A stretch of 42,246 nucleotides of DNA from a virus. Where the stretch lies: IMG/VR virus record IMGVR_UViG_3300025828_000047, positions 1 through 42,246 of that record; one strand, 5' to 3'. Both the position numbers and the translations under genes were made by a program. The notes beneath the pieces were generated by a model. The model made no database searches and had not been told where the DNA came from. It saw only the letters and a list, made by a program, of their open reading frames with translations. Below, piece by piece: positions 1,496-42,246 of this stretch (within the stretch, counting starts at the first letter, position 1; every line of letters starts with the position of its first letter).

Positions 1496-3076
1496 TTACC
1501 CCTTCATTAGCCAGATGAATTGTTCTTGTTGCTCTAGTGCTGTTTTCTTTTTATTATCAAAGCTATTATGCCCTAACATGCCAGGTATGGTTGTGTCAAG
1601 TTTTTTATTTGTAGCAATCAAAGAACTAAAGAAAGCTTCTCTATATTCCATTTCCCTCTTATTTGCAGTCAATGCAGTATCTCTTACCCAACAAGAAATT
1701 GCCAAAGACATGATAAGGTCATCGTTGTAGCCTCTCATGGCCTGTGGCTTTCCATTATTCCAAATAAAAGTCTCCATTTCGTTACATAAGCGATTCGAAT
1801 GTATAATAACTAGTTTATTTCTGATAAACTCTTCCATTTTAGCAACAACTAAGGGCCTCGTCTTAGTTGTTGTGGAGAAACCCGGAACTGAACTAGCATT
1901 AGTGTACGCCACTTCTTGCTCTATGTATTCGTGGGTTCCTTTCAACGAATAATATATATTAGAGTATCCAAGCAATTCAAGCTTCTCTAGAACAGAAATA
2001 CCAATACCAATATTCTCAACAACTAAGAGGGCATTACCATACTCTTTCCCAACTTGGTCTAGGATACTAGCGTACATGTCAAGGCTTGGTTTGCCCTGAT
2101 ATTCTGCTACCTGCTCCATCGTAGAGACTTTGAATACGTGAAAAGCAGAACTATCTTTACCGTCACCTCTAGCAACATCTGCCACAAGTAAATAATTCTC
2201 TCCAGTTACATATCTTTCCCAGATCCAATAATTTCTATCAAAGCCTGTTCTGTAACTTGGCTCCTTGACAGTTTGTTTTATGAAAGCAATATCGTCAGGG
2301 TGTACCACAGTTTCGCCGGATGTATTGAAGTTACACTCAAGCTCCTGTGCAATCTGGCGTCTTGACATATTTCTTGTTTCTTTCTCAAACCATTTAAGAT
2401 CTCGCTCGGGATGAACATCCCATGGGAGGTTGGAGGGAAAGAAATCGTTCTCTCCTGCTTCTGCATCGACATACGTTTTGTGAAACCAGTTACCAATACC
2501 GTTTGGCGTGCTTAGGGCGATACAACGCCCACCAGTTGACAGTGTAGGGTACAGGCCCGTCCAAAGTTCCTCTAAGCCTTCGATGTGGGCAGCCTCGTCT
2601 AGAACCAAAAGTGAAAGGGCCTCCGAACGACCAGCGTCTCCAGAAGTGGATGCTGCTTTAATCTGCGACCCGTTGCTCAATTCAAAAGAAGACCGGTTGT
2701 CAATATTAATATCAGCAATACGAATCCACTCTGGTAGATTCTTCATAATGCTTTTTACTTTCTTTACCAAGTTTGTTGCAGTCGCAAACTTAGTTGCCAT
2801 AACTAATACATTTTTGTCTCGATGAAAGAGCAGAAGCCAGACAACATAGGCTGCAACAATTGTTGACAAACCAAGCTGTCTAGCTTTCAAGATAATGTTG
2901 AAACGATGATCGTTGAAGTTAACCAACATATCATCTTGATATGGGAAAGTAGTAAAGGGTATTAGACCCTCAAGGGGGTGAGAAATCCTACAGTAGTTAT
3001 TGATAAAGTAAGCTGGGTCTTTGCCAGACTTTACAACCTCTTTTAAGATTTCTTTTTTTGTTAGCTGGTAAGCCAT
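1496..3076 (-). CDS. Terminase large subunit, T4 gp17-like
   Basis: ATP-driven DNA packaging motor and headful nuclease, acting at the portal vertex of the prohead. At 526 residues it is somewhat shorter than T4 gp17 (610). The N-terminal ATPase has a Walker A-like KARQLGLST (residues 64-72), a Walker B LLVLDE (156-161) and the coupling motif LSTPNG (188-193). The C-terminal RNase H-fold nuclease has the expected acidic residues: D300 (VADVARGDGKDSS), E354 (LLVVENIGIG) and D452/D453 (YNDDLIMSLAI). The start is ATG with AGG 5 nt upstream. It begins 6 nt after the preceding 182-residue gene and ends 3 nt before the portal start, so the genes are translated together. All catalytic residues look intact. 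Confidence 0.96.
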   Translation of the reverse strand: MAYQLTKKEILKEVVKSGKDPAYFINNYCRISHPLEGLIPFTTFPYQDDMLVNFNDHRFNIILKARQLGLSTIVAAYVVWLLLFHRDKNVLVMATKFATATNLVKKVKSIMKNLPEWIRIADINIDNRSSFELSNGSQIKAASTSGDAGRSEALSLLVLDEAAHIEGLEELWTGLYPTLSTGGRCIALSTPNGIGNWFHKTYVDAEAGENDFFPSNLPWDVHPERDLKWFEKETRNMSRRQIAQELECNFNTSGETVVHPDDIAFIKQTVKEPSYRTGFDRNYWIWERYVTGENYLLVADVARGDGKDSSAFHVFKVSTMEQVAEYQGKPSLDMYASILDQVGKEYGNALLVVENIGIGISVLEKLELLGYSNIYYSLKGTHEYIEQEVAYTNASSVPGFSTTTKTRPLVVAKMEEFIRNKLVIIHSNRLCNEMETFIWNNGKPQAMRGYNDDLIMSLAISCWVRDTALTANKREMEYREAFFSSLIATNKKLDTTIPGMLGHNSFDNKKKTALEQQEQFIWLMKG

Positions 3077-3082
3077 GCTGGC

Positions 3083-3631
3083 CTACTCTTTCTTTCTAGA
3101 ATCGTTCTCTGGTCTCTTGCCCGCGAAGCCACCTTGGTCCAAGAAAGTCCTAAATTTAACATCCATACGATCCTCGGATGGGGCCTTGACTTCCTCTACT
3201 TCATTTAGTGTACCAATATTGTACATTCTGTGCGCTTGACACCATGTGCGAACTCTTGAAGTGTTCTGAACAATGACGTTTACATCACCGTCTGCGGTAA
3301 GCGTGAGAGAATCGCCTGTGATTGCTTTGTACTCTTTCTTTAGGAACGTAGCAATATCATTGATCATAGACTCGACATTAGACTCAAAAGGAGTAGAATA
3401 AATCTCTTTAAGCATCACTTCAGAATGGTATGAGATTTTTAACTTCGGACCATGGAAAGAAACGCCAAAGCCATCCATAACACGTTTGTCTATCAGAGGA
3501 TTCCCCTCTTCACGCTTGAGTCCAACTTTTCTTGCCTTGCCGTCAGACGCATACTCTTCCATGTGAGCCCCGTCGTAAGCGTTGGCTGCTGCTTGCGAGA
3601 TCCCTCTGATGATTTCTAAAGTGGTTGCCAT
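3083..3631 (-). CDS. Conserved phage protein of unknown function in the small-terminase position
   Basis: 182 residues beginning MATTLEIIRGISQAAANA. I chose the ATG at 3631-3629 over a longer in-frame start at 3670, because it overlaps the upstream stop as TAATG and has GGGAGA 6 nt upstream. The body is soluble alpha/beta, with a predicted helical segment in the middle (VESMINDIATFLKKEYKAI) and a charged C-terminus rich in Asp, Lys and Arg (PENDSRKKE). There is no signal peptide, membrane helix or recognisable catalytic motif. In T4 the gene just before the large terminase encodes gp16, the small terminase, which makes that role possible, but I see no clear helix-turn-helix and the sequence reads more like a virion or neck protein. 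Function is left open. Confidence 0.8.
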   Translation of the reverse strand: MATTLEIIRGISQAAANAYDGAHMEEYASDGKARKVGLKREEGNPLIDKRVMDGFGVSFHGPKLKISYHSEVMLKEIYSTPFESNVESMINDIATFLKKEYKAITGDSLTLTADGDVNVIVQNTSRVRTWCQAHRMYNIGTLNEVEEVKAPSEDRMDVKFRTFLDQGGFAGKRPENDSRKKE

Positions 3632-4017
3632 TATTTGTCTCCCTTTTCTGGACGCCAGCCTGTTAGCCATCTTTCTTCTCTGCCTTCAACCCACTGAACG
3701 TAACAATTATAACAACAATCATACTTGCTCATGTAGGCATCATCTTTTATACTGAAAGAAAAAGTTTCACAAACGGGGCAGTCTCTCCTTACGAATTCTT
3801 TATTAATTAGTTTTTTAGAAACTAAAATGCCATTGACTTCGTATTTCTCTTCGCTTTCTTGGAAAGATCGTTCTTTTTCTGCCAGGATTTTCAATTGTTC
3901 TTTATAACATTCTTCCTTTTCATCGTTCCAATACTTTCTTGGGTTTTCAATTGCCTCTGTACCGTATTTCTGGGCAATAGCTTTTTCTATCCTTGCAATT
4001 CTATTTGGGTCCTTCAC
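3631..4017 (-). CDS. Small zinc-ribbon protein, unknown function
   Basis: 128 residues. The start is GTG at 4017-4015, overlapping the upstream TAG as TAGTG and preceded by a strong GGAGG, so the non-ATG start is well supported. The N-terminal half is a charged helix (Lys/Glu-rich, residues 1-60). The C-terminal half carries two cysteine knuckles, CPVC at 80-83 and CYNC at 102-105, the spacing of a zinc ribbon; an extra Cys sits at 101. It ends with a Trp/Arg-rich segment (VEGREERWLTGWRPEKG). No catalytic domain is visible. It lies between the membrane-protein cluster and the packaging genes and is coupled to both. A nucleic-acid or protein-binding role in late gene expression or packaging is only a guess. 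Confidence 0.82.
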   Translation of the reverse strand: MKDPNRIARIEKAIAQKYGTEAIENPRKYWNDEKEECYKEQLKILAEKERSFQESEEKYEVNGILVSKKLINKEFVRRDCPVCETFSFSIKDDAYMSKYDCCYNCYVQWVEGREERWLTGWRPEKGDK

Positions 4018-4217
4018 TATGCCTCCATTTTTTCTTTGATAAGGGATACTAAATTTGATGCATCATGTTCAAAAAGGAAAGGGAAAAACGCATGTACTAA
4101 ACAAATACAAGATGCGTATAGTAGCAACAGACAAAAGCCTATAGCTCTTAGCATGTGCCCCAAATAAGACATCCCAATAGAGTTTGGATGTTCACGGAAT
4201 AGCTCTATCAATCGCAT
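4017..4217 (-). CDS. Small membrane protein, DUF6356-like
   Basis: 66 residues starting at ATG 4217-4215 (MRLIELFREHPNSIGMSYL), with GGGA about 6 nt upstream. A TTG four codons earlier is a weaker alternative. The pattern L-F-x-x-H-P-x-S-x-x-x-x-Y-L-x-H-M, then a hydrophobic stretch (residues about 25-46) and an H-A-x-x-P-F-L-F-E motif, matches my memory of DUF6356, a small uncharacterised membrane family of Proteobacteria. The hydrophobic part is long enough for one transmembrane helix, perhaps a hairpin. The gene overlaps the preceding coiled-coil gene by 26 nt and its stop is shared with the next gene's GTG. Because it sits with two spanin-like genes, a holin-like or lysis-regulating role is conceivable, but nothing in the sequence proves it. 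Confidence 0.8.
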   Translation of the reverse strand: MRLIELFREHPNSIGMSYLGHMLRAIGFCLLLLYASCICLVHAFFPFLFEHDASNLVSLIKEKMEA

Positions 4218-4635
4218 ATGCAGTCCCAATCCCTAATGCTATACCAGCCACCACACTTCCAGCTATAACTAGCGGAAGGTTGACCTTCCTGTCCTTTTTA
4301 ATTAGTTCTCGTAATGACTCTATTTCTTCGTCTCTAAGAGAAATCTTTTCTTCATATCTAAAAGTTCTCTCTTCTAGCTTAATGTTTAGAGTTTCTATGT
4401 CTAGAATGTACTTTTCTCTTTGTAGGCTTAATTCAAAATTCAATCTATTTTCAAACTCTCTTTCTTGGAATTCTCTCCAAGTTAGAAGTTTAGCAGTAGC
4501 AATATCGTCAAAGCATGTAGCTTGAAATGGTACACGACCACCGCTTGGCACCAATGTGAAGCTGCCGTCTTGTGCCATCGCCGGGTTACACAAGACTAAA
4601 CTTATACTTAATATTTGTGCAATCTTACTTAACAT
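4192..4635 (-). CDS. Secreted coiled-coil protein with C-terminal membrane helix; possible spanin partner
   Basis: 147 residues from ATG 4635-4633 (MLSKIAQILSISLVLC), chosen over an in-frame TTG at 4647. Three parts are visible. First comes a signal peptide with an A-M-A site before QDG (residues about 1-21). Next is a long charged Glu/Lys/Arg helix with heptad character (about 50-115) that should form a coiled coil. Last is a glycine/alanine-rich hydrophobic helix (LVIAGSVVAGIALGIGTAYA, about 121-140) near the C-terminus. This predicts a periplasmic coiled coil anchored in the inner membrane by its C-terminal end, opposite to a classical i-spanin. The cysteine in SLVLC does not fit a lipobox well, so a lipoprotein is not favoured. 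It overlaps the upstream spanin-like gene by 11 nt, as spanin pairs often do. The lysis role is inferred. Confidence 0.8.
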   Translation of the reverse strand: MLSKIAQILSISLVLCNPAMAQDGSFTLVPSGGRVPFQATCFDDIATAKLLTWREFQEREFENRLNFELSLQREKYILDIETLNIKLEERTFRYEEKISLRDEEIESLRELIKKDRKVNLPLVIAGSVVAGIALGIGTAYAIDRAIP

Positions 4636-5002
4636 AATCAAAACCAAATGCTTGTTCTATCTGTTCTGCTAGTAGTTCTGGGTTGTCTCTCCGCAATGTG
4701 ACAACCTCTTCTGTCCTAGAGTCTCTAGCAGCCTCTATGTCACGCTGCACCGTCTCAAAGATGGTCTCTAGCTCTTTTATTCTATCTTGGTACTGCTGTA
4801 TGACTTGTTTCTGAAGCTCTGCCTCGCGGGCATGACTTTTCCTAATCACAGCAAGTTCTTTTTCGTACCTCTCAGTGGCACTGTCGAAGCTCTGTATTAG
4901 AGAAGAACGGTCATAATACCATGAAGCAGAAACGGTTAAAAGCAATAATCCAATTAATATTTCTTTCCAGTATTTGATCAAAAGTGTTCCTAATGGATTC
5001 AC
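4625..5002 (-). CDS. N-terminally anchored coiled-coil protein, i-spanin (Rz)-like
   Basis: 125 residues. The start is GTG at 5002-5000 with GGAG 5 nt upstream; no in-frame ATG precedes it. Residues about 13-29 (KEILIGLLLLTVSASWYY) form one transmembrane helix. They are followed by a long charged helix rich in Glu, Gln and Lys (residues about 33-105) with coiled-coil character, and a short tail ending FGFDYVK. Size and layout match inner-membrane spanins of the lambda Rz type, which link inner and outer membranes in the last step of lysis of Gram-negative hosts. No sequence signature fixes that identity, because spanins are recognised mainly by architecture. The gene overlaps the next coiled-coil membrane gene, which supports a functional pair. 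Gene 29 nt upstream is the SbcDC-like fusion. Confidence 0.8.
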   Translation of the reverse strand: MNPLGTLLIKYWKEILIGLLLLTVSASWYYDRSSLIQSFDSATERYEKELAVIRKSHAREAELQKQVIQQYQDRIKELETIFETVQRDIEAARDSRTEEVVTLRRDNPELLAEQIEQAFGFDYVK

Positions 5003-5031
5003 TGTAACTCCACATGTATAATATAATTAGT

Positions 5032-8000
5032 TTAACATTCAACAAAAGCATGACCCTCTTTTTGTTCGATAGATATCTGCATATCGACACAATCCTTTAG
5101 AGCCTCAAGGTGAGAGATCAAAAGAACGGTCTTGAAATGACTCTTAATCATGTCTAACATTCTTGTAAAGCCTTCCATGTTTTCTTCATCGAGTGCTGTG
5201 CCTGGCTCATCAAGGATAAACACATCACCTTTGGGTAGGTTTGAAACTGAAAGCATAGCAAGTCTAATTGCCATGGCAGCAATTGTTTTCTCAGCACCTG
5301 ACCCCATCTCAAGAGGTCGTGACTCCTGGCCTGGGTGTTGGATATGGATATTCAATCTCTTGCCATCATCCTCAAAGTAAACGTCAAAGTCAACGATATT
5401 CATCAAGAACTTAGAGATTTCTTCATTGATTACGGGAAGCTTACTTTTAATAATATCATAGGCTATGCCATTGCTGTGCATGCACTTGAGGTAAAGGTCG
5501 TATGCAGAATACTCCTCTTGTAGTCTGACAAGTTCTGCCTGCTGATCTCTTAGGTTCTCTATCTTCTGCTCTAAGGAGCCAAGCTTTTTGTACAAGAATT
5601 TTGCTTGATTGTCGAAGTTCTTCTTCTTTGTTTGAGCATTGGCCAGAGCAACCTCAAGGGCTCTCTTATTAGCCATGAGAGTATTTAACCCATCGATAGC
5701 TTCCTTATTAATATTATATTGTTGCTGCTTCTCCTCTAAACCTTCTATCTCAGTAATCAAATTAGAAATGATCGCTTTATTCTTGTCGATTGTGAGCACA
5801 GCCCTATCCAAAGCTGTTTCGTATTGCGAACGCTTTGACAGCATCTTCTGATGCTTATCAAGTTGCTCCTGTGCCTCTGTGGGGTCAAGGGCATCTCGCT
5901 TCTCTTGTAATTGAGCCTTATGAGAGTCTAGCTCAGAAAGCTGGTGCTCGTTTGTAGGAATATTAGCTTTTGCGACATAAGCATCTTTAATAAACTTACA
6001 AGTGGGGAAAGAAGAACCACAAGGGATACCCTCTAGCGTTGTTGCTTGTCTTTCATTTTGCCTCTTCTCTTTTGCTATCTCGCTGATCTTTTGATTTAGT
6101 TCTTGCATAAAATCATCAATCTTAGAGCACTTATCTACTCTATTCTCATATGTCTTCGCATCAAAGTCATCGATATAGTCGGTGAATGTTTTGATAATCT
6201 CTGTATATCTAATCACCTTTTGCTCTAATTCAGTTTGCTGGTCTTGAACGGACACTAATTGGTTTCTTTTATCTTGCAGCCGCCTTGTCAAGTCAGCGAT
6301 GTCGATAAGCTCAGTGGGCGTTGAATCAATCTTCACCTGAAGCAGAGCTATATCTTTGCGATACCCTTCGATCTTTTCTGCTATTGCTTTAAGCTCACCT
6401 TGCTTAGTCTTATGATCTTCGATGCATTCTTCTAGGTCGTACAGAGCTTGGTCGATATCTGCGGCATACTCTTTTCCCTCAAGTCTCTTGAGTGCTCCAC
6501 GCAGATCAGATGCTTCGACTTTTGCAAACTTGTACTTTCGATCAAACAGTTCTAGGTCTAGGAACTTAGCAAAGATTTCTTTACGCTTCGTTGAGCCTTC
6601 ACGAATAAAAGAAAGAGAATCCAGCTGAGAGGACATTGAGGTTAGAAGAAAATCGTCAACTGTTCCAAAAACCTTTCTAATCTCCTTATCCGTATCGTTT
6701 CTGGTAAGGCCATTGCGCTCTGACTTAAAGCCATCAATCGACACAGACGTAAAGTTAACATCTGTCTTAGCCTCTGTTATTTGCTGGCCCTTTGACTTCT
6801 TTGTGTATTTGTCAGACTGTCGAGTAATATTCCACACTGTTCCGTCTTCTGTGAGGATTTCTAGCACACCACGAGCATACTCTTTATCAAAGTTAATTAC
6901 ATTTAGGTTTTTTCTTTCGTTCTTTGATGTGGTGTTGAACATCGTAAACAGTAAGCTATCGATAATGCTAGACTTACCAGAGAAGTTCTTTCCAAAGATG
7001 CCTACGATCCCATTCAACTTTGCAAAGTCAATGTGATTATCTTCGCCATAGTTGAACAAGTTGTCGAAAGTTAGGCTACGAATAGCCCAATTGACATTTC
7101 TTAAGACTTCCTCTTTCTCTTCGGCCATAAGGTTATACTTGTCATTCAGTTGGAGAATCTTGTTCATGACAGAATCACTAAGATTGTAATCCGACAAAAA
7201 CTCCTTAATAAGTCTTCTTTGTACCACAATATCTCGTAAATCGTCGTGACGAATATGATCTACGGTGCCAACGTCAAGGCTATTCTGGCTAATGTTTCTA
7301 TTGAGAAACGTGATGCTCTCTGGCTGGTATTGGTGCTTTGCCACGTCAACAGCTTTCTTCATCTCTTCTAGAGAAATGCTCTCATTTGAGACCAACCTAA
7401 TGCGAGCCCCTTTATCAACTTGATACGTCGGAACCTTGCCGCTCTGTAGTTCTAGAGTAACGAAGGGCTTTGGATTCTTAAACGTAACGCGCTTGACAGT
7501 GAAGCTATCCCTATCTTGGATGTCCCAAATGAGCATACCCTTATCTTCAGACTCTCCAAAGCCTTGCTGAACGGTTGAACCTGCATAGCGGATCTTACCC
7601 TTCTTATCCATTGCCTGAGCTTTGTGGATGTCTCCCAAGAAGCCATAATCAAACTCTTCAAAGATTGTCACATCATGCTCACCCTTTTCCATAGTCCAGC
7701 CACTGTCCGTTTGGCAGTTAGAGATAGAGCCATGATACAAAGCAATATTAACATTATCGTAGTTTGATGGATCTTGCCAGTTGTCCTCATCGAATACAGA
7801 CAGGACAGACAGCGAAAAACCATCCCTTAGATAGACCTCTTGTGAATCCTTAAGCAAGTGTAGCTTGGGGTGCTCAAGTGCTTCCACAATGGGCGTTAAG
7901 GCGTCGAGACGGCCTGTATTCTTGAGGTTGCCATCGTGATTACCAAGGATCACATATGTCGGAGCAATGTCAGCTAGTCTGCTTAGAAAAGCGGAACACA

Positions 8001-8210: not shown

Positions 8211-9152
8211 CTACAAGCTCTTTATTTTTTGCAATAAGTAGTTCTCCGCACTCATTACGGTGGCTTGTTCTTTTCTCTCTCTAAGAACGTTTTCTGGCAT
8301 TTCTGCCACGTCTTCCCAGCCCTCTACGCTGATTAAGTGAGTTTCTACGCCGTATCTCATCAAACAATCTGCTATGGATGATGTCTTTTTCTTATCCATC
8401 TCTGTGTTTTCATCCAAAGCAAGGTACACTTTTGGATCATGGCGCACAAGGTTCTGGAACAGTTTTGAATTAATTCGGAGAGTTGAGCCAACTAGAGGTA
8501 TGGCAGTACCTACAGTTGAGGCTCGGATCGCATCAAAAACTCCCTCTACTAGAATGACATCTCTATCCCAATCAACATAAAGTTCGTTAAATACAATATC
8601 CCTGTTTACTCTTGGATTCTTATATCTCATCCAATCTCCGTCATACGAGCGAGCTATAAAGAAATTGGCTTTGCCTGTCATACTAAAAGATGGAATAATA
8701 ATTCTACCTCTGTACTCTCCTTCATCGCAGAAACCGATCTTCCAGCGTAAAATATCTTTTCTCGTCACGCCACGACCAATCAAATAGTTCATAGCATTCT
8801 GAGCAGAGATCGTATTTGTATTAGCAAGGGAGCGAAACTCTTTTGGAAGCTCAACTACTTCTTCTGGCTTTTCTTCCTCTTCTTCAAAGATATTGTCAAA
8901 GCCACCTAATTCTACCCTGTTGGTTAGGGCTCTCCATTCTTGGACGTGCGAGAAAGAACCGTACCTACGGATAACTTGGTAAACATCGCTGCTTCTCTTG
9001 TCACAAACCCAGCACTTGTACACGTTCTTGTCCACATTGACAGAGAACTTTCTCTTGTGATGGTTGCAATAAGGGCATATAAAAAGATGCTCTTGACCAG
9101 AAATACGAGACCGACCAAGAACATCTTTCAGGATTTGAAGCTTTTCTCTCAT
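8211..9152 (-). CDS. DNA primase, DnaG-type with zinc finger and TOPRIM
   Basis: 313 residues. It synthesises RNA primers for lagging-strand replication, equivalent in role to T4 gp61. The N-terminal zinc-binding domain has C26-x2-C29 (CPYC) and C47-x2-C50 (CWVC). A Glu-rich linker follows (residues 89-102), then the catalytic core with the TOPRIM motif VILVEGVFDA (E203, D207) and a second acidic patch YLALDENTE (D247). It is much shorter than bacterial DnaG and lacks an obvious C-terminal helicase-binding domain, as is usual in phages; no helicase is encoded in this window. The start is ATG with only a weak ribosome site (CUAGAG), and the start codon lies in the 3' arm of a perfect hairpin (9143-9176), suggesting translational control. 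It ends 35 nt before the TTG of the SbcDC fusion. Confidence 0.92.
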   Translation of the reverse strand: MREKLQILKDVLGRSRISGQEHLFICPYCNHHKRKFSVNVDKNVYKCWVCDKRSSDVYQVIRRYGSFSHVQEWRALTNRVELGGFDNIFEEEEEKPEEVVELPKEFRSLANTNTISAQNAMNYLIGRGVTRKDILRWKIGFCDEGEYRGRIIIPSFSMTGKANFFIARSYDGDWMRYKNPRVNRDIVFNELYVDWDRDVILVEGVFDAIRASTVGTAIPLVGSTLRINSKLFQNLVRHDPKVYLALDENTEMDKKKTSSIADCLMRYGVETHLISVEGWEDVAEMPENVLRERKEQATVMSAENYLLQKIKSL

Positions 9153-9191: not shown

Positions 9192-11873
9192 TTAACCCTT
9201 GATTAATTTTTGCCAGCGATTGTAGATAGATTCATCCAACTCTCCACGAGCTTGTGCTGCCGCGAACTCTCTTTCAAATTCATCAGGCTCTGTGTTTCTG
9301 TCGTAAAATCCACTTTCAATCTTTTCCATTTCTATTTTAATCTCTTCAGCAGTCATTTTTATTTCTTCGTTCTGCTGGATACTAACGTCTTCACCTTGTG
9401 CGATTACATCTTTTAACAATGCTAACATTGTAATCGTTTTCCCAATCAAACTAATCGCTCTTTTTCTATTGCCTAGAGGGCCTTTGGCAAACGTCATCTT
9501 ACCGAAATCAGCGATATCTCCCGGCAAGAACTCATCCACTTTACTAAAATCGTAAGTAACAGTCTTAGTCGGCCCTTTCTTGGCCTTGAGACGCTTCTCG
9601 ATGTTTCTTAAATCCTGAACTGCTTGTTCAATCGCAGGTGCTGCAGACGTCATAGCAACTACACTGCCACCTGTAGCGGCAGCAGGTGATGCCGCCTGGC
9701 CTATTGAGAGGCTACTTGACTGCGTGGCGCTCGGGAGAGTACCAGTAAATTCTTTCTTTGAGCGCTTAATTAATTCAATTGCTTCTGATGGCCCGAATTG
9801 ACGTTTAAGCTCGGCGGCAGTTGCTTGATACCACTTTTGGAAAGCACTATAGGAACTGTCTTTTGGCAATACAGCTTCTTTCAAATTATCTCCAGTGGTC
9901 GCCGCAATCCACACTCTAGCCATTTCAGCATGTTTTGGACTCACTGAAGCAAACTTACGCCAGTCAGCAGGAATACCGGAAAGATCAACTGCTGAACTTG
10001 ACTGTTGTGATGGCTTGGATACTTGAGTTGGCATCTTCTGCCTTAGTTGGGTATACATCGGACTGACAGCATTCTTGAAGCCACCTTCAGCCGGTGGTTC
10101 AACCACTAAAGGCTCTGCTAGTAAGCCGAGAATCTTATCATTTCGTTGTAATTCTTCATAAGATTTTGGTGGAGCAGCAAATACATCGCTCATAGTTTTA
10201 AAGATCCTACTTGCTACTTGTATCCTATCCTGATCCGTGCTTCCCCAGCTGTTCCATGAACCATTGCTTTGCAAATATTGTAAAATACTGTCTGCACTAG
10301 ATAGGTTTGCTGATGCCTGCTCAGCCAGAACAGTTTTAACTTCTTGGATAACCATTTCCTCTAATTGCTTGCTTGTGAGTTTCATCTTCTTTGATCTCCT
10401 TTGTTGTCTTTCAATTCTTTTAGCTAACCTGACCTGTAAATTATTTTTTGCTCTCTCGATCCTGGCTTTAAGCTTTTCACTGTTTTTTGCTTTTGGCAAT
10501 AAACTTTCTAATCTTTCAATCTTCTTTACTAAAGCTGGAAATGGCAACGAATTGTCCGAGCCACGCTCAGTTTGCTGTCCAAATTGTTTTGGGTTTATTG
10601 GCAATAACTCACCAGATTCTGCATTATTTAATTCCTGTTCGACTGAACGTTCAATTAACTCTTCCATAGTTTCTTTGTCAACTCGACCAGTCGCTTCTAG
10701 GCGATTTCTTTTTTGAAAATCAATTACTGCTTTTTCTGTTCTAGGGCCAAAATACCCATCTATTCCAATTCTGATACCTGCTGTTTGTAGCAGCCCTTGT
10801 AGAACCCTAACTATTCCTTCTCCTTGCGCACCAGAAGGCAAGGATCTATCAAATTTTTTCAAGACTCCTTTATTATTTAGGATATCTTCTTGTGTGAGGT
10901 TAGTCACTTGATATGTTGGTCTAACATTTGTACTGACCGCTGTCTGAGCCTGTTTTCGTGCTTCCTCTGGAGTGTCCCCACCTTTCTCAACCTCGGCAGC
11001 TACTTGTTTCTCTGTTTCGGCAACTCCACTTAATACAATTTTATTAGCGTTAACAGCAGAAGATACCACTCTATCAACAAGCTTTAAAAGTGCTGTTTCT
11101 GCCGCATCCTCACTCTTAATACGAAAACGATCTTCTGTGCCACGATCTCTAGCATACTGCCATTCAGAAGCGATCATCTTCTTAACCAAACTGGTCAATG
11201 AATCCTTCATAAATGCTTGTTTTATTGGAGTCGGGCTAATTGGACTGTTTGCTACTGTTATCTCATTAGCTTGCTCAATAAACGCCTGCCTTCGACCAAT
11301 CGCTTCCGTGCTTGGGTTATTGGGAGTATAATCTATGGTTGCTGTCGGAGCGTAATCAGCGCCGGACATGACCCTATCTAGACCCAAAGAGGGAACCCAA
11401 TATTCCTTAAACCTGCTATAAAAATCTGTTGCGTTAAAGATGTAGCTACAGCATTCTGCTAAGAAGTTTGCATACTCTTGTGAGTATGCAACCATTGAGT
11501 CACTAAGTGGCTCAGAAGCATCATCTGGTATTAACTTAAGTATTTTTTCTGTGTCGGGGTTTGAGCTACTTTGCTGCACCCAGGCTTGGAAAATATTAGC
11601 TAAATATGCAGAGGTTGGGGCACCGACGAGAGCAGTTTGTCTTAGGCTAAACTGCCCTCCTGACGTAAACATTGCTTTGCCAAGACTTTTAAGTACCGGC
11701 CCTAAAACTTTAGTGCCAAGGAAACTAAGTGCTGAGCCTGCCATCGGTGCTGCTGCTCTAAGACCTAAAGCTCCGAAACCCACTTCATCCAACTGCCGCT
11801 GCTCTTTCATAGCAGACTTAGCTTCTTCAATAATAATTTGATTTATTTCAAATTCGGTCAACTTATGTGCCAT
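9192..11873 (-). CDS. Large modular protein with peptidoglycan-binding domain and two copies of an N-terminal helix motif
   Basis: 893 residues from ATG 11873-11871 (MAHKLTEF), with GGAGA 8 nt upstream; a TTG at 11888 is less likely. Module 1 begins with the helix KLTEFEINQIIIEEAKSAMK, then a Gly/Ala-rich hydrophobic stretch (about 38-75). It also carries a peptidoglycan-binding-type domain (about 349-405, with IDGYFGPRTEKAVIDFQKRN and TGRVDKETMEELI) and a very basic linker (about 460-496). Module 2 restarts with MKLTSKQLEEMVIQEVKTVL (497 onward) and runs through Ser/Ala-rich segments to a conserved-looking acidic end (NRWQKLIKG). No catalytic muralytic domain is recognised. It could be a virion protein that contacts cell wall during entry, or part of lysis. 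It overlaps the RuvC-like gene by 11 nt. Function uncertain. Confidence 0.85.
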   Translation of the reverse strand: MAHKLTEFEINQIIIEEAKSAMKEQRQLDEVGFGALGLRAAAPMAGSALSFLGTKVLGPVLKSLGKAMFTSGGQFSLRQTALVGAPTSAYLANIFQAWVQQSSSNPDTEKILKLIPDDASEPLSDSMVAYSQEYANFLAECCSYIFNATDFYSRFKEYWVPSLGLDRVMSGADYAPTATIDYTPNNPSTEAIGRRQAFIEQANEITVANSPISPTPIKQAFMKDSLTSLVKKMIASEWQYARDRGTEDRFRIKSEDAAETALLKLVDRVVSSAVNANKIVLSGVAETEKQVAAEVEKGGDTPEEARKQAQTAVSTNVRPTYQVTNLTQEDILNNKGVLKKFDRSLPSGAQGEGIVRVLQGLLQTAGIRIGIDGYFGPRTEKAVIDFQKRNRLEATGRVDKETMEELIERSVEQELNNAESGELLPINPKQFGQQTERGSDNSLPFPALVKKIERLESLLPKAKNSEKLKARIERAKNNLQVRLAKRIERQQRRSKKMKLTSKQLEEMVIQEVKTVLAEQASANLSSADSILQYLQSNGSWNSWGSTDQDRIQVASRIFKTMSDVFAAPPKSYEELQRNDKILGLLAEPLVVEPPAEGGFKNAVSPMYTQLRQKMPTQVSKPSQQSSSAVDLSGIPADWRKFASVSPKHAEMARVWIAATTGDNLKEAVLPKDSSYSAFQKWYQATAAELKRQFGPSEAIELIKRSKKEFTGTLPSATQSSSLSIGQAASPAAATGGSVVAMTSAAPAIEQAVQDLRNIEKRLKAKKGPTKTVTYDFSKVDEFLPGDIADFGKMTFAKGPLGNRKRAISLIGKTITMLALLKDVIAQGEDVSIQQNEEIKMTAEEIKIEMEKIESGFYDRNTEPDEFEREFAAAQARGELDESIYNRWQKLIKG
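10383..10400 (-). promoter_or_regulatory. Strong internal ribosome site and ATG inside the peptidoglycan-binding gene
   Basis: Reading the minus strand, AAAGGAGATC is followed 10 nt after GGAG by an in-frame ATG (10385-10383) that begins MKLTSKQLEEM. This resembles the anti-Shine-Dalgarno complement better than most true starts in this window. Initiation here would give a separate 397-residue product (9192-10385) identical to the C-terminal module of the 893-residue protein. The site may be functional (two products from one gene) or a relic of a fusion between two adjacent genes. Confidence 0.55.
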
Positions 11874-12402
11874 TCTTTGCGTCTCCAATTAGCTTGATAG
11901 CTGCTCTTGCTATGATTAAACTGTCTGCTCTATCATAAGATACTGGCTTGGGGTTCCCTCTGCTAGTATATTCTATAGTGAAAGACTCTTCATTCTTCAA
12001 TAAATAGTCCAAAACAACATCTTTTGCCTTTTGGCCTCTGGAAACTTTAATGCCACTTAACTTTCTCGCTTGGGCTGGAGATATATGAACTGGTCTATAT
12101 CCAAACGTGTCATGACACAGCCAAGAAACAATACCATTAAAGGCTTGAAGTTTCGCCATTGTCTTGGCTGTTGAGCCACCTGATTTAAAGAAAACAAAAG
12201 GTTCCTCAATATAGACATGTTTTATATTGTAGTAAAGATTTATTTCCTTAAGTTTTTCTTTAATAAACGATCCTTTATTATAGAGATCTGAAAATAAACG
12301 TTTGTTTCTTAAGTCCCATGCTTCACAAATTATTATTTTTGCTTCCTCGTCTAGAATCGTATATCCTGTAACTGAGGTGCTTATATCTAATCCCAATATC
12401 AT
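11863..12402 (-). CDS. RuvC-like Holliday junction resolvase
   Basis: 179 residues with an RNase H fold. It begins MILGLDISTSVTGYTIL, with the first catalytic Asp at D6. The second acidic site is VYIEEP (E66/E67), and the last pair is D157 and D160 in YDRADSLIIARAA, matching the RuvC set of four acidic residues. It should cut four-way DNA junctions; in T4 that job belongs to the unrelated endonuclease VII (gp49), needed to debranch DNA for packaging. The ATG overlaps the stop of the preceding structural gene as ATGA, so it is translated together with late-type genes, and it overlaps the following gene by 11 nt. A more general RuvC-family nuclease is possible, but the motifs are complete. Confidence 0.9.
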   Translation of the reverse strand: MILGLDISTSVTGYTILDEEAKIIICEAWDLRNKRLFSDLYNKGSFIKEKLKEINLYYNIKHVYIEEPFVFFKSGGSTAKTMAKLQAFNGIVSWLCHDTFGYRPVHISPAQARKLSGIKVSRGQKAKDVVLDYLLKNEESFTIEYTSRGNPKPVSYDRADSLIIARAAIKLIGDAKNGT

Positions 12403-36084: not shown

Positions 36085-39000
36085 CTAGTCATCTCCATTT
36101 TTACAAGGGGCAGGTCTTAATGAACTCCACTGCCACCATTTGATTCCTGGGTTTAGGTCAGAATTAGAACCTAAATTGTCAACGTAAACCTCAGATGGAC
36201 TCATGTAGTCTTTATCCCTGTAGTCATAACTAGTATAGCAAGCAGCTTCTAATGTCTGTCTAGCTACTAATTTTGTATTTTTGAAGGAGTTCTTCATTCC
36301 TTCGTTACCACGCCAAGTGTGCATCCCTCCATTTTTTCCTGCACCAATCCAGCGACCGCCACCTCTTTTCTTGTTGTTCGCCGTCGCAGCCCAACCATCT
36401 TCAACTCTTGCAAGGGAAGGTACAAATGTGTTGACACAGTAAAGAGCTAGCAGATCCATGTACTTAGGTATCGGATAACAGTGCTCAAATAGAGTCTTAT
36501 AAGCTGGCGTCTCTATCAGTAGGCATACTAGTCGCTGAAGATAGTCGTTGTAAAGCCCAGCCTCATATGCATCAGTTGTTAGCTGTATCTCAGCAGACGC
36601 TATTGGGATTGCGTTTTTGTATAGCGAATTGAAAGCTTTATGTGTGTATCCCGTTTCCTCTGAGACTCCAGCCAATGCGCTACCCATACTATCAGTAAGA
36701 TTAGAAATTCTAGCTGCGCTTGGAATAAAGCTGATCCTTAATCCAAAATAAACTTCATCCTCCGCTAGTACCTCTCCAGTGTGGGCGATTTGAGCATCAA
36801 AAATATTTGATACGAAACCAAACAGCTTAAAAGTATTTGCTGTGTCCGTAGAACCCTTGGAAATAAGATACCTTTCAAGTACAAAGGGAGTATTGGAATT
36901 TGATATTAATATATCTGGACTGTCATATGGGTGTGTTGCACTAACTCCAGCAATAGAAGACTCAAAATAGGCAGCATTTGGTACATCATATGGTCCTGCT
37001 TCTGTCGTGCCTATAGCGCCTCGGATAATTGTGGGACTCTTCAAGATAATATCATTAACATCCTTGAAATTTGGACTCACACCCTCTGAGAAAATTTCTG
37101 TTGTCCTTGCGTATTCGTTACGGATATAGCGCCTAAGTATCGTCTTACAACGTGATATAATCGGAGATTCGACTGTTTCTGGTAAACCAGTAACTGCGTT
37201 TACTCCCACGGTACTTTGGAATATAGTGTCCCAATTCTGCTTCCTACGCTTAGCGAGTCTCCTCGCAGAGTTCAAGCCTGTAATCAACCCAGGGGGAACA
37301 TATACCCAGTTATCCTCAACGAATTGGTTGATAAAGTCTAGAGCTTCTTGCTCCTCTGGTGTAATATCTGTTATAAGTCCTAGATTGACTTTAATTCCAA
37401 AGTTCTGGACAACTTGCTCCAAGAATAACCACCAATAATCTTCATATTTTTCAACAAAGCGTTTGCCACGACCTGCGTCTTTCATGCCCTGTTCCATCTT
37501 GTCTATTACGAATTCAGATAGCATCTCGCCATAGTTAAATTCTGACAGGGCTAGGTATTGCAAAACAGGGAGACCCTTCATTAGAACTTCAACAACATAG
37601 GTCCTTATTGTAGCATATATCGTGCCTTCGATTATGCCAAGAGAAGCTTTTGATAAGTGTCTATCGAAAGGTAACTCTCTCTCTGCACTTACACCCTTGA
37701 CTTTGAGACCGGCTCTTTCGTCCATTGGGACTTTGGCGCTAAACTCAGAGCACACAGATTTCAATGATGAAAAGTCTGGGAATGTAACGACATCGCTACT
37801 ATCTTCACATGGATTAAACTCAGGAATGATTTTTTGTGCTATTCTCAAATAACCTTTATTGTCGGGCTGCTTGAGGTAAAATGGCGGATTACCTTCAGAA
37901 CCACCGTATCTCTCTACAGCTGCACCGATATCTCCATCAAATTCTTCTTCATGGAAATATTTTATAATTGGTGGTTTAGTCGCATCAAATCCATAAACAA
38001 ACGGTGAGTTGTCACTTCCTTCCGCAGCAACTAGCTCTGCTAGGGCTTCTAGAATCCTCTGGCTTATTTTCTCAAACCCAATGACCATAGAGTCTTCAGC
38101 AGAATCATACTCTACATCAAACTGAAGTGATCCAGCAGCATCGCCTCTGGGAGTATCTGGCTGCCCTAGATATTCATATACACTGTGTTCTACAAGTGCT
38201 TGGAAAGTTGAGTCTGGGCTAGATGAGCCACCAATGTAGTAATCACTTAATATATTACTCTTAAAGCCTGCGATAACATCGTCAACGGAAGACTTAATGT
38301 CAAAGTAACTTATCACTTCTTCATATGGGTCTCCGCCTTCATCTTTCCAGTTTTCATTCTTCATGTTTATTCTTAGCCTATGTCCATCCCATGAGTGCTG
38401 TTGTCCGTCAGGTGGGGTGGTCCAATAATCGAAACTAAAAGTAAATTGCATGGTATCTGGATTATCATAATCAAACCAGAATAAGTTAGTGGTGTATCCA
38501 CTCCCTACATTGAAGGGGGTGCTTAAGTTAATTAAACTATCTTGCAAATGTCCTGCGACCTTGTCTGGTAAGCCGCCTAGTGCTGGGGCCTTACCAGAAA
38601 TTTCGTCTCCATTAGAATTGTTACCTGTATTTTCTTCTGTTTCGCCGTCGCCTGTTGAAGATAAAGGGTTAAATAAGAATGGCAGCTTAAATATCTTTGT
38701 ACCTTCTGTGAATTCTCTTGGCCCTGTTACCCAATTATTGTGGTCCTTAGGAGTATTTGCCCCATCTCCCCACTCGTCTCTCGGGGGATAAGCTCTGGTG
38801 CCACGAGAGCCATATATGTTTAGAACGGATGGCCCCAGGACAGAACTCTGGAACCCAAGGTGTTGTCTATAACCTCTGCCCCTAGAATCAGCCAGAACCA
38901 TGTTTAAGAATCCTCTTTTACCAATAATATCCTCAGTAAAAGATAGAGACATTGCATCAAAAATACTGTTATAGATGTTATCTAAAGCAATTGTCTCCAT

Positions 39001-42000
39001 TGGCATTTCGGAAGGCAAAAGACCTGGCTTGTCGCTAGTTGGGTCTTTCATAATGTCTGGTATAACACTATTGAAAATACCAGCCTGTAACAGACTCATA
39101 AGGTCTTCTAAGTCAGCAGCTGTCTGATCTCTTAGGACACATAGCTGTCCCTCGATACAAGCCTCATCAACGCCCTTGGCGCGCAATGCTTCTGCTCTTG
39201 TAGCGCGGAACACATTAAGAAGTCCCATGTTATCGCAGACTTCTCTAGAGACAGGTAGATTTGTTGGATTTTGAATGCAAAGCTGATCAAGATCGACAAA
39301 TATGCCTATTGCCTTAAAGAACTCATGAACCGAGTCTCTGTCGAATAAACACTCTGTTAGAGACGCTGTAACAGGATCAGTTCGGACGATTTCTACGACA
39401 AGGTCATATAGATTATCAGACCCTTCGCCATTGATTAGATCAACTAGTTCACATTGTGTCACCACAGACGCTACGTTGTCCACTAGACGCCCCATCGCAA
39501 CTGCGTCGGTGTAGCACCCCCTGTTGGCTAGAAGATCTGTCAGAGCGCCATCTACAAGCTCAGGATCGATATCCGCATTGCCACATAGATTAGCCTTTAG
39601 GGCATCTCGTAGGTTGAGTGGATCTTGCCCTCTCCTCGTCTTACAAAGCTCTTCTGCTATTATTTCTAATATCTTCTTGAGAACAAGAATAAGAAGGCGG
39701 ATAAGAAGTTCTTCCAGAACCCTCAGGGCATTATCAATAAGAATCTTAGAAATTGTGTTGAATTTTATTTTTGGTATAACAGGAATCGTGATAGAAGCCT
39801 GAAGCTCGCAGAAGTCTAGGTTAACGCCAGGTAGCTTAATAAACTCTTTTAGAGGTGGGTAGAAAAGCGGAGGCGCAATACAGAACTTGTCTATCTTCTG
39901 CAAAATATTAACTGCGATTCCAGCGCCAGGAAGGTTGTTCAAAACATTTAATATTTCGTCTAGATTCAATAAGTCGTTGACAACCAAATCATAAATCACA
40001 TCTTTTAGCTGTCCATAATCTTGTGGCGTTGCTGCTCTCTGCTCCCTACCCAGAGAACCTACCTGGGCTGGTGGATCGCTTAATGTTAATTCAGCTGTTA
40101 CCGTCCCCGGTGTTCTGGTGACTCCGACAAATCCCTGATCCCCAAGAGAGCCCAATGGAATGTCTTTGCTTGTATAGCTATTCTGTCTATCGTAGACTGG
40201 CTCTATGACAGCCCCACCATCATCTAGAATTGTTACTGTTGCAAACCCAGCAAGGAACGGAAGTAATTGTGGAGCGACTTCATTTACGGAAGCTACGATT
40301 ACTTCTTGTGCTTCAGGAGGCAAGCTACTAATAAACTTTCCTACAAATTCATCATCCATGCCCTTCACAGCAGCGCCAACGATTATAGAGATTGCGTCAT
40401 CATAACCAAGAGCGTTTAAGATGCAATCAACTGCAGCCTTGATGAGATCGATTAAGCCACACATTCCTAGATTGTTTAGCATCCCGCCGTACAGATCACC
40501 TAACTCTTTATAGCGCCCCCTTACCAAAAGCTCTGGTAAATCATTGATGAACCTATCACTTGTTAGATATTCCTTTAGCGTCATATCCGTGATTTGGAGA
40601 GCAAAATCCGTCCTACCCTGATGCTCTAGAATCTTTGCATCGACAAGGGCACACGGGTTTGAGCTAAACTGAGACAGTAGCGCTCCCTTAATATCATTGA
40701 TTTGGCTTTCGGCCCATTTCTGTTTTTGAGTCGAGTTCCCAAACAAGTTTGGTTCGAATATGCCACTTGATAAGCCAGAAGCGCAAACCTCTTGTTCTAG
40801 CTGTTTTATAGATTCATTTCCTTCTGTTATTGGCGAAGAATTGTCTAAACCATAGTTCTCTTGAATTGCTGGGAATCGATATTTGCTTAACATGTCATAC
40901 CAAGAGATGGCTTCTCTAATCATCAGATCATTCTTCATGTTAGGCAACTGCGATACATAGGCACAAGTTGTCTTGTCATTCATTGGGGCTCGATTAACAA
41001 ATGAGCTAAATCCCTTCTCTATCTGAATTGGAGAAGAGTTTTGTTTTTGGATCTTTATATATTCGACTGTAAACTCTGGGGTGAACCCTATTTCAACCCA
41101 CTCTAAGCCCCTAATGTCATGCCCTGACTCTCTTAGCAGGAGATCGGTTTCCTTAAAAAAGCTCTCAATCCTCTTAGACTCTGTTGAAAAGTTTAGGCCC
41201 CTTATGATTTTACCTGTGTCGAGGTGCCATTGAGCATAGAACCTATCGTAAAGCCCGAATGCATAACTAACTTTATCAAATATATCTTCCATTTCTAGTG
41301 CCTTAAACACTACAAAGGAGCGTTCCCCAGAAGAATAAACAGGAGTAGGAGTACCCTCTTCAACCTTCGGCTGTCTCTCTGGTATTCTGTTAAACTCCTC
41401 GGCAGATACCGTAATCAAGACTTTTGTTTTCGCTTTTGGTCTAGGTGGAATGTAAAATGTTTTTACTTTTGCAGTACCAACAAAAGCAAGTCCGTCAAGA
41501 TATAAGCCTTCGCTACCATTTGTTAAGGCATCCCTAGAAGACAATACACTTTGAAATCCAGTTGATACGTTTGTAAAATCAACATTAACTTTTTTATTGT
41601 AATAATCAAGTAGCTTATTTATAGCGTCTGGTATAAAAGTATTAAAATATTCTTCGCTACAGTCTGGGGGATCGGCCAACATAACTATGGAATATTCACA
41701 AGTCTTCTGGTTTAAGAATGGCTCGTCTTCTGATTGGTTTAGCCAGTTTGGAACTATAGCATCCGGGTTTGGTATGCAACTCTGATAAGTCTCTACAGTT
41801 AGTGGGCCTTCGTCAAGATCCCTGCATTGCCCAGGATTAGCATTGCCAGGCTCAAGAGTTGGTAATTCCGAATCTAGATTTATTGCCTCACAGCCATAGC
41901 CGTCAGCCCCCCTTAAGAGTATTGCTTCGTTGAGAGCTTCAGTGGACACGGAAACAGAAGTGCTATGAGCCTGAAGAAAAGAATCCCAATATCTGGCTAC

Positions 42001-42246
42001 CGTATCATCCACGATGTCTACAAGAGGGTTTTCATCGAAATAAAGCCTATCTGCCATGGCTCTAAATATTTTTATATTACATTCGTTTGTTGTAAGCTCA
42101 GCATCTGTGAAAGATCCGCCGTAAGGGGCGCTCCCACCACAAGCTCCCGCTGAAGTAGTGGAATAGCCTGCATCAGAAAAAACTCCAGATATAAATTCAC
42201 TTCCATCGACTGGCCCTAAACCCGCAGAGTCTAAAATTTCTAGGGC
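36085..42246 (-). CDS. Giant structural protein, at least 2053 residues (5' end beyond right window edge)
   Basis: The reading frame is open from the stop at 36085 to the right edge with no stop codon. An internal ATG at 42057-42055 (MADRLYFDENP) would give 1990 residues but has no good ribosome site. The 63 codons above it read as protein (for example DSAGLGPVDGSEFISGVFSD, then TTNECNIKIFRA), and the other two frames there have early stops. I therefore take the gene as 5'-truncated. The protein is acidic with scattered Cys. Around residues 775-800 (counted from MADR) is a strikingly Leu/Ile-rich helix pair (LEELLIRLLILVLKKILEII). A C-terminal basic stretch (NNKKRGGGRWIGAGKNGG) precedes the end. 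It is coupled to gp25, so baseplate or tail assembly is likely; no known family recognised. Confidence 0.88.
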   Translation of the reverse strand, partial: ALEILDSAGLGPVDGSEFISGVFSDAGYSTTSAGACGGSAPYGGSFTDAELTTNECNIKIFRAMADRLYFDENPLVDIVDDTVARYWDSFLQAHSTSVSVSTEALNEAILLRGADGYGCEAINLDSELPTLEPGNANPGQCRDLDEGPLTVETYQSCIPNPDAIVPNWLNQSEDEPFLNQKTCEYSIVMLADPPDCSEEYFNTFIPDAINKLLDYYNKKVNVDFTNVSTGFQSVLSSRDALTNGSEGLYLDGLAFVGTAKVKTFYIPPRPKAKTKVLITVSAEEFNRIPERQPKVEEGTPTPVYSSGERSFVVFKALEMEDIFDKVSYAFGLYDRFYAQWHLDTGKIIRGLNFSTESKRIESFFKETDLLLRESGHDIRGLEWVEIGFTPEFTVEYIKIQKQNSSPIQIEKGFSSFVNRAPMNDKTTCAYVSQLPNMKNDLMIREAISWYDMLSKYRFPAIQENYGLDNSSPITEGNESIKQLEQEVCASGLSSGIFEPNLFGNSTQKQKWAESQINDIKGALLSQFSSNPCALVDAKILEHQGRTDFALQITDMTLKEYLTSDRFINDLPELLVRGRYKELGDLYGGMLNNLGMCGLIDLIKAAVDCILNALGYDDAISIIVGAAVKGMDDEFVGKFISSLPPEAQEVIVASVNEVAPQLLPFLAGFATVTILDDGGAVIEPVYDRQNSYTSKDIPLGSLGDQGFVGVTRTPGTVTAELTLSDPPAQVGSLGREQRAATPQDYGQLKDVIYDLVVNDLLNLDEILNVLNNLPGAGIAVNILQKIDKFCIAPPLFYPPLKEFIKLPGVNLDFCELQASITIPVIPKIKFNTISKILIDNALRVLEELLIRLLILVLKKILEIIAEELCKTRRGQDPLNLRDALKANLCGNADIDPELVDGALTDLLANRGCYTDAVAMGRLVDNVASVVTQCELVDLINGEGSDNLYDLVVEIVRTDPVTASLTECLFDRDSVHEFFKAIGIFVDLDQLCIQNPTNLPVSREVCDNMGLLNVFRATRAEALRAKGVDEACIEGQLCVLRDQTAADLEDLMSLLQAGIFNSVIPDIMKDPTSDKPGLLPSEMPMETIALDNIYNSIFDAMSLSFTEDIIGKRGFLNMVLADSRGRGYRQHLGFQSSVLGPSVLNIYGSRGTRAYPPRDEWGDGANTPKDHNNWVTGPREFTEGTKIFKLPFLFNPLSSTGDGETEENTGNNSNGDEISGKAPALGGLPDKVAGHLQDSLINLSTPFNVGSGYTTNLFWFDYDNPDTMQFTFSFDYWTTPPDGQQHSWDGHRLRINMKNENWKDEGGDPYEEVISYFDIKSSVDDVIAGFKSNILSDYYIGGSSSPDSTFQALVEHSVYEYLGQPDTPRGDAAGSLQFDVEYDSAEDSMVIGFEKISQRILEALAELVAAEGSDNSPFVYGFDATKPPIIKYFHEEEFDGDIGAAVERYGGSEGNPPFYLKQPDNKGYLRIAQKIIPEFNPCEDSSDVVTFPDFSSLKSVCSEFSAKVPMDERAGLKVKGVSAERELPFDRHLSKASLGIIEGTIYATIRTYVVEVLMKGLPVLQYLALSEFNYGEMLSEFVIDKMEQGMKDAGRGKRFVEKYEDYWWLFLEQVVQNFGIKVNLGLITDITPEEQEALDFINQFVEDNWVYVPPGLITGLNSARRLAKRRKQNWDTIFQSTVGVNAVTGLPETVESPIISRCKTILRRYIRNEYARTTEIFSEGVSPNFKDVNDIILKSPTIIRGAIGTTEAGPYDVPNAAYFESSIAGVSATHPYDSPDILISNSNTPFVLERYLISKGSTDTANTFKLFGFVSNIFDAQIAHTGEVLAEDEVYFGLRISFIPSAARISNLTDSMGSALAGVSEETGYTHKAFNSLYKNAIPIASAEIQLTTDAYEAGLYNDYLQRLVCLLIETPAYKTLFEHCYPIPKYMDLLALYCVNTFVPSLARVEDGWAATANNKKRGGGRWIGAGKNGGMHTWRGNEGMKNSFKNTKLVARQTLEAACYTSYDYRDKDYMSPSEVYVDNLGSNSDLNPGIKWWQWSSLRPAPCKNGDD

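Follow-up and report, generated by a model that had tools for sequence, protein, structure and literature searches.

A two-module gene of a T4-like phage fragment with an N-terminal tag common to unrelated phage proteins and a candidate internal start

The window, that is, the whole stretch of 42,246 nt analysed from IMG/VR record IMGVR_UViG_3300025828_000047, is by its terminase, RuvC and primase genes a fragment of a T4-like phage. Gene P0001 begins with the ATG at 11873 and ends with the stop codon at 9192-9194. Its parts and neighbours are listed below in the direction of transcription.

11863-12402, minus strand: upstream neighbour, RuvC-like Holliday junction resolvase (PHROG 159/827, E ~1e-10), overlapping P0001 by 11 nt
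9192-11873, minus strand: P0001, two-module gene of 893 aa, between the RuvC-like resolvase and DnaG-like primase genes
11784-11873, minus strand: N-terminal tag, aa 1-30, MAHKLTEFEINQIIIEEAKSAMKEQRQLDE (tag profile, 22.9 bits)
11667-11756, minus strand: hydrophobic Gly/Ala-rich stretch of module A, aa 40-69, seen in the translation
10656-10811, minus strand: PG_binding_1 (peptidoglycan-binding) domain, aa 355-406 (Pfam PF01471, E=2.8e-15)
10393-10402, minus strand: internal Shine-Dalgarno (SD) sequence AAAGGAGATC, with a gap of 10 nt from AGGAG to ATG
10314-10385, minus strand: internal tag with its own ATG, aa 497-520, MKLTSKQLEEMVIQEVKTVLAEQA (orthologues at aa 471 in relative L006 and aa 502 in relative L033)
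9195-10385, minus strand: module B, the predicted second product of 397 aa
9195-9239, minus strand: C-terminal motif LDE-SIYNRWQKLIKG, aa 879-893, a candidate C-terminal propeptide
8211-9152, minus strand: downstream neighbour, DnaG-like primase (PHROG 47, E=1.4e-34)

A near-identical 80-kb contig (G001) includes a copy of P0001 at 100% identity and, in addition, genes for the Gp23 major capsid protein and a gp21-like protease. Scans of the P0001 region for promoters and terminators gave no excess over shuffled sequences. Elsewhere in the window, an ORF of 1990 aa (36085-42057) is cut by the window end and reaches 2412 aa in G001 (59480-66718), and the terminase large subunits (window 1496-3076 and relatives) end in short W-containing C-terminal tails (WLMKG, WIFKG, WLLG).

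PG_binding_1 was the sole recognised domain of P0001. Its relatives in the PDB are cell-wall hydrolases, phage endolysin gp144 among them; identification of P0001 itself as an endolysin was rejected, with PG_binding_1 present and no catalytic peptidoglycan hydrolase domain found. AlphaFold models were of low confidence (mean pLDDT 45.7 and 56.1) and fold searches with them returned nothing significant; module B was modelled as helical. The hydrophobic stretch of module A may have a membrane role, and together with the peptidoglycan-binding domain it suggests that this module acts in ejection.

Searches with the whole protein or with a three-member alignment reached only four contigs, and queries with the primase and RuvC genes on either side, used instead, gave 35 and 29 loci, respectively. 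Fusion and internal tag (KKM[KN]xT) were both kept in L033 (958 aa) and in L006 (737 aa, 39% identical). In L033, unrelated sequence replaces the part of module B just after the internal tag, after which similarity resumes. The corresponding protein of L087 (1202 aa) has three tags: one N-terminal, one at 413-431 without Met and one at 1010 with ATG and SD. Relatives with the modules in separate genes, which the sequence-only reading had proposed looking for, are represented by L088, in which the RuvC-primase slot holds two genes of 414 and 655 aa, each N-terminally tagged, the second ending in VNESILNRWKKIIKG, like the window's LDESIYNRWQKLIKG. The L008 slot contains a tagged gene of 473 aa and an untagged second gene with a weak Peptidase_M15 match, while L010 (contig G005, 2965-6772) has five tandem genes with another tag, M..(L/I)..ENWRxxLxE. 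One of these tandem genes, of 333 aa, gave a weak protein kinase match (Pfam E=6e-6, below the curated cut-off). On the arrangements in L033, L006, L087, L088, L008 and L010, the slot can be described as holding tagged proteins, separate or fused. A possible multi-tag polyprotein was seen in L076 (G007, 2337-5552), where a 1071-aa ORF carries five tags, the four internal ones having no start codon at the tag.

The two separate tagged genes of L088 and the module swap after the internal tag of L033 make it well supported, from sequence comparison, that P0001 combines, end to end, two proteins that were once separate. A recent gene fusion had been suggested for this gene; the fusion stands, and "recent" was rejected as unsupported, because the fusion is common to L006 at 39% identity.

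As had been noticed from the letters of the window, the helix at the start of module B is of the same kind as that at the start of module A: LTEFEINQIIIEEAKSAMKE and LTSKQLEEMVIQEVKTVLAE are alike in sequence and both are predicted to be helical (low-confidence model). The larger point, missed in that reading, appears to be the nature of the helix as a tag, its wide distribution and its tie to the prohead core. By profile and pattern searches the helix is an N-terminal tag, MK[IL]T..QL..II.EE, on dozens of unrelated marine T4-like phage genes. Among 1048 proteins, a tag profile made solely from 20 N-terminal copies matched 61 times at 8 bits or more, the seed copies included (0-1 in shuffled sets); 42 of the matches start at residues 1-10 and 12 lie beyond residue 60. 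A DNA pattern scan of IMG/VR yielded 174 distinct tag copies, 156 of which had fewer than 30 open codons upstream, and a few were far inside longer ORFs. A short N-terminal tag common to unrelated proteins was thus found for the phage group, with few tagged genes in the window's contig. The P0001 N-terminal tag is also kept in L006, L033 and L008. With the tag model the window's internal tag reached no more than 1.4 bits; it was recognised by alignment with its orthologues in L033 (16.9 bits) and L006 (13.2 bits), not by profile score. A short-query tblastn of the tag against annotated phages found nothing, a method unsuited to a query of 22 aa.

Tagged genes elsewhere include enzymes (NT5C-type nucleotidase, kinase-like proteins). 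Related 5'-deoxyribonucleotidases in L110 (19857-20456) and L071 (15237-16085) differ in the N-terminal tag that precedes their common core, QIYCDMDGVL, so the tags look exchangeable. In Immutovirus, a cultured phage, gp79 (L110, 24007-26532; 841 aa) has an internal tag-like sequence, SKSELKEIMLEAYIEVLQE, near residue 672, with no ATG at the tag. Several genes of Flavobacterium phage immuto_2-6A, a cultured relative, bear tags.

An SD sequence before the in-frame ATG at 10385, inside the 893-aa gene, had been reported for the window; this was borne out, with the strand corrected to minus. The 397 aa from M497 onward begin MKLTSKQLEEMVIQEV. The anti-SD duplex energy at M497, -9.0 kcal/mol, ranked first among the 43 in-frame ATG, GTG and TTG codons inside P0001, and true ATG gene starts in the compared contigs had a median of about -7. 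Internal ATGs with an SD as strong numbered 3/319 in the 80-kb contig and 24/991 (2.4%) in three related contigs. A chance origin of the SD was judged unlikely, because it ranks first of 43 and so few internal ATGs match it.

Between the window and L033, which match at 66% of codons overall at identical residues, the longest identical-codon run in the gene is 15 codons (aa 484-498) and spans exactly the SD, linker and ATG. The permutation p was 0.0017 for this stretch and 0.035 for any 15-codon run. Conservation of SD and ATG exceeds that of the surrounding codons, and codon conservation peaks there; recombination at the module border could also have produced the run. L006 keeps the ATG and has a weaker SD, AAAGGAAACC (-5.6), so that conservation of the internal ribosome site is clear in L033 and reduced in L006. 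In a wider, small and hand-chosen set of nine internal-tag ATGs, the SDs were like those of gene starts and better than those of internal ATGs (Mann-Whitney p 4e-4). Given the SD and ATG, conserved in L033 and weakened in L006, the proposal of one gene with two proteins, full-length and 397 aa, is plausible and, on balance, more probable than not. It does not appear to be general, since the second tag of L085/L087, the internal tags of L076 and that of Immutovirus gp79 have no ATG; with tags occurring inside other ORFs in this way, a tag inside an ORF is not by itself a sign of a second start, and the tag can also serve inside a polyprotein.

Peptidase_S77 (gp21 family) was present in 7/7 records first tested, G001 included (E=9.1e-35), and in 15/18 further tag-bearing records, the three misses being records of 98.6 kb and, in two cases, about 41-42 kb. 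This tie between tag and protease is co-occurrence only. T4-like phages carry a prohead protease anyway.

A set of 1354 proteins was searched with three profiles of protein ends. With the N-terminal profile of a small protease-adjacent gene, N-terminal tags were among the best non-self matches (4 N-terminal matches of at least 6 bits, with 0.05 expected from shuffled controls). The slot C-terminal motif had as its best non-self match the C-terminus, SRWQKLAGIIK, of an Immutovirus scaffold candidate (0 in 20 shuffles), scaffold genes being named by position before the Gp23 gene and not by family match. For a third tag type, from Immutovirus, the top non-self match was the gene adjacent to the protease of that phage (0 in 20 shuffles). 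These links come from few, short, low-scoring matches (6-10 bits; shuffled controls 0 to 0.05), by which tag and tail weakly resemble prohead-core gene ends, well above shuffled controls.

P0001 ends in [LI]xE-S..RWQKLIKG. This C-terminal motif, kept in L006, L007, L033 and L088b, resembles scaffold C-termini. It is preceded by [LI]xE-S in the window, L006, L007, L033 and the 840-aa protein of G005, by VNE-S in L088, and by LNE-S or IQE-S in two scaffold candidates. [LI]xE[SAGV] just before the motif was found in 7/19 motif proteins and 35/929 others, these being related sequences and not independent; short motifs, such relatedness and a loose cleavage motif limit the statistics. [LI]xE is present in the tags, as a loose and common motif, at 33% N-terminally compared with 24-29% in the whole protein set, and a general N-terminal excess was dropped as evidence because it is too small. 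The candidate cleavage sites in P0001 are LDE30, IQE511, LAE518 and LDE881. A search of the open literature found no immuto phage proteome and no tandem-tag phage polyprotein.

From the fusion, the tags and their distribution, the conserved internal start and the presence of the protease, we infer that P0001 joins two prohead-targeted internal (ejection) proteins, with the internal start probably in use and trimming by the protease; this is the reading we favour and consider reasonably probable. Two adjacent genes for internal, capsid-packaged and probably ejected proteins would have fused by loss of a stop codon. The amphipathic tag of each module would act like a T4 capsid targeting sequence and take the protein into the prohead core, where the [LI]xE sites of the tags would allow trimming by the gp21-like prohead protease. 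The C-terminal [LI]xE-S..RWQKLIKG may be trimmed as well, as a candidate second propeptide; both ends of P0001 are probably processed, since its C-terminal motif is like those of scaffold proteins. Module A would likely help the genome to cross the cell envelope on entry. In the internal SD and ATG the old start of the second gene would survive, probably still in use, so that an 893-aa precursor would be made alongside a 397-aa module B whose N-terminal tag is free. Cuts by the protease at the internal tag would part the modules of the precursor.

Three other readings were weighed. A polyprotein without a second start, in which the N-terminal tag loads the chain, the protease cuts at the internal tag and the ATG is coincidental, would account for the multi-tag ORFs with ATG-less internal tags (five tags in L076, the second tag in L087), and is in keeping with the prohead protease in the same records and the [LI]xE of the tags; it leaves unexplained an SD and ATG placed exactly at the internal tag, and their conservation, and is rather unlikely. 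Somewhat less likely again is a fusion only, that is, one 893-aa chain in which modules A and B act together and the SD and ATG are relics. The weaker SD of L006 and the internal tags kept without an ATG in L085/L087, L076 and Immutovirus gp79 are what it would predict, but the ATG and SD are kept in the window and L033, the ATG with a partial SD persists in the 39% identical L006, this very site has the peak of codon conservation and the SDs of internal-tag ATGs are like those of gene starts (p 4e-4 against internal ATGs). A role of the tag as a docking helix for some other phage complex, such as replication proteins, with no part for the capsid, is improbable: P0001 does sit between RuvC and primase, and tags occur elsewhere on enzymes (NT5C-type nucleotidase, kinase-like), but the tags and C-terminal motif resemble protease-adjacent proteins and scaffold, and a peptidoglycan-binding domain is ill-suited to a replication protein.

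Extended beyond P0001, the favoured reading of prohead-targeted, fused internal proteins suggests that, across a large group of marine T4-like phages, many unrelated proteins are loaded into the prohead by a short code of tags (helix tags at the N-terminus, W-tags, RWQKL at the C-terminus), some of them as protease-cut multi-tag polyproteins with up to five tags, internal starts being another means of freeing a module; this wider scheme is put forward tentatively, as possible and short of probable. Should the tags prove to be capsid-targeting signals, sequence itself could tell what cargo many uncultured phages package and inject, and numerous genes that now lack a name would acquire a location and a processing site. 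Multi-tag fusions would be a way for tailed phages to load ejection proteins as polyproteins and afterwards separate them.

Among known systems, endolysins with PG_binding_1 (gp144) share the peptidoglycan-binding domain with P0001, whereas P0001 is without a detected catalytic hydrolase domain. The ejection proteins of phiKZ and SPN3US have propeptides trimmed by the prohead protease at several cleavage sites, and gp53 and gp54 have diverged and yet have identical N-termini, which recalls the tags described here (PMC5694885). They differ in that their N-terminal propeptides are mostly far longer (>120 aa), and the passages of that report consulted describe no internal repeated targeting tag (PMC5694885).

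In T4, propeptides of 10-19 residues target internal proteins to the core and are removed by gp21, and Alt is processed at both ends (PMC9026906). The likeness to IPI-III and Alt lies in a short N-terminal tag on otherwise unrelated proteins whose cargo varies between relatives, in candidate [LI]xE sites with a gp21-family protease in the same records, as read from sequence, and, for Alt, in the candidate C-terminal propeptide of P0001. Unlike the T4 capsid targeting sequence, the present tag is longer and different (about 20-25 aa, MKITK..LK.IIKEE), groups have two or more tag families and one polypeptide can carry several tags; T4 head proteins compared with these tags, from a stretch without IP genes, had only layout in common with them. 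Among T4 head and packaging genes, 21 and 17 each have an internal in-frame start from which a C-terminal product is made (PMC9026906). P0001 has a candidate start of this kind, its SD and start codon being conserved beyond coding need, to which recombination may have contributed; the short form of genes 21 and 17 truncates one protein, whereas that of P0001 would be a separate tagged module.
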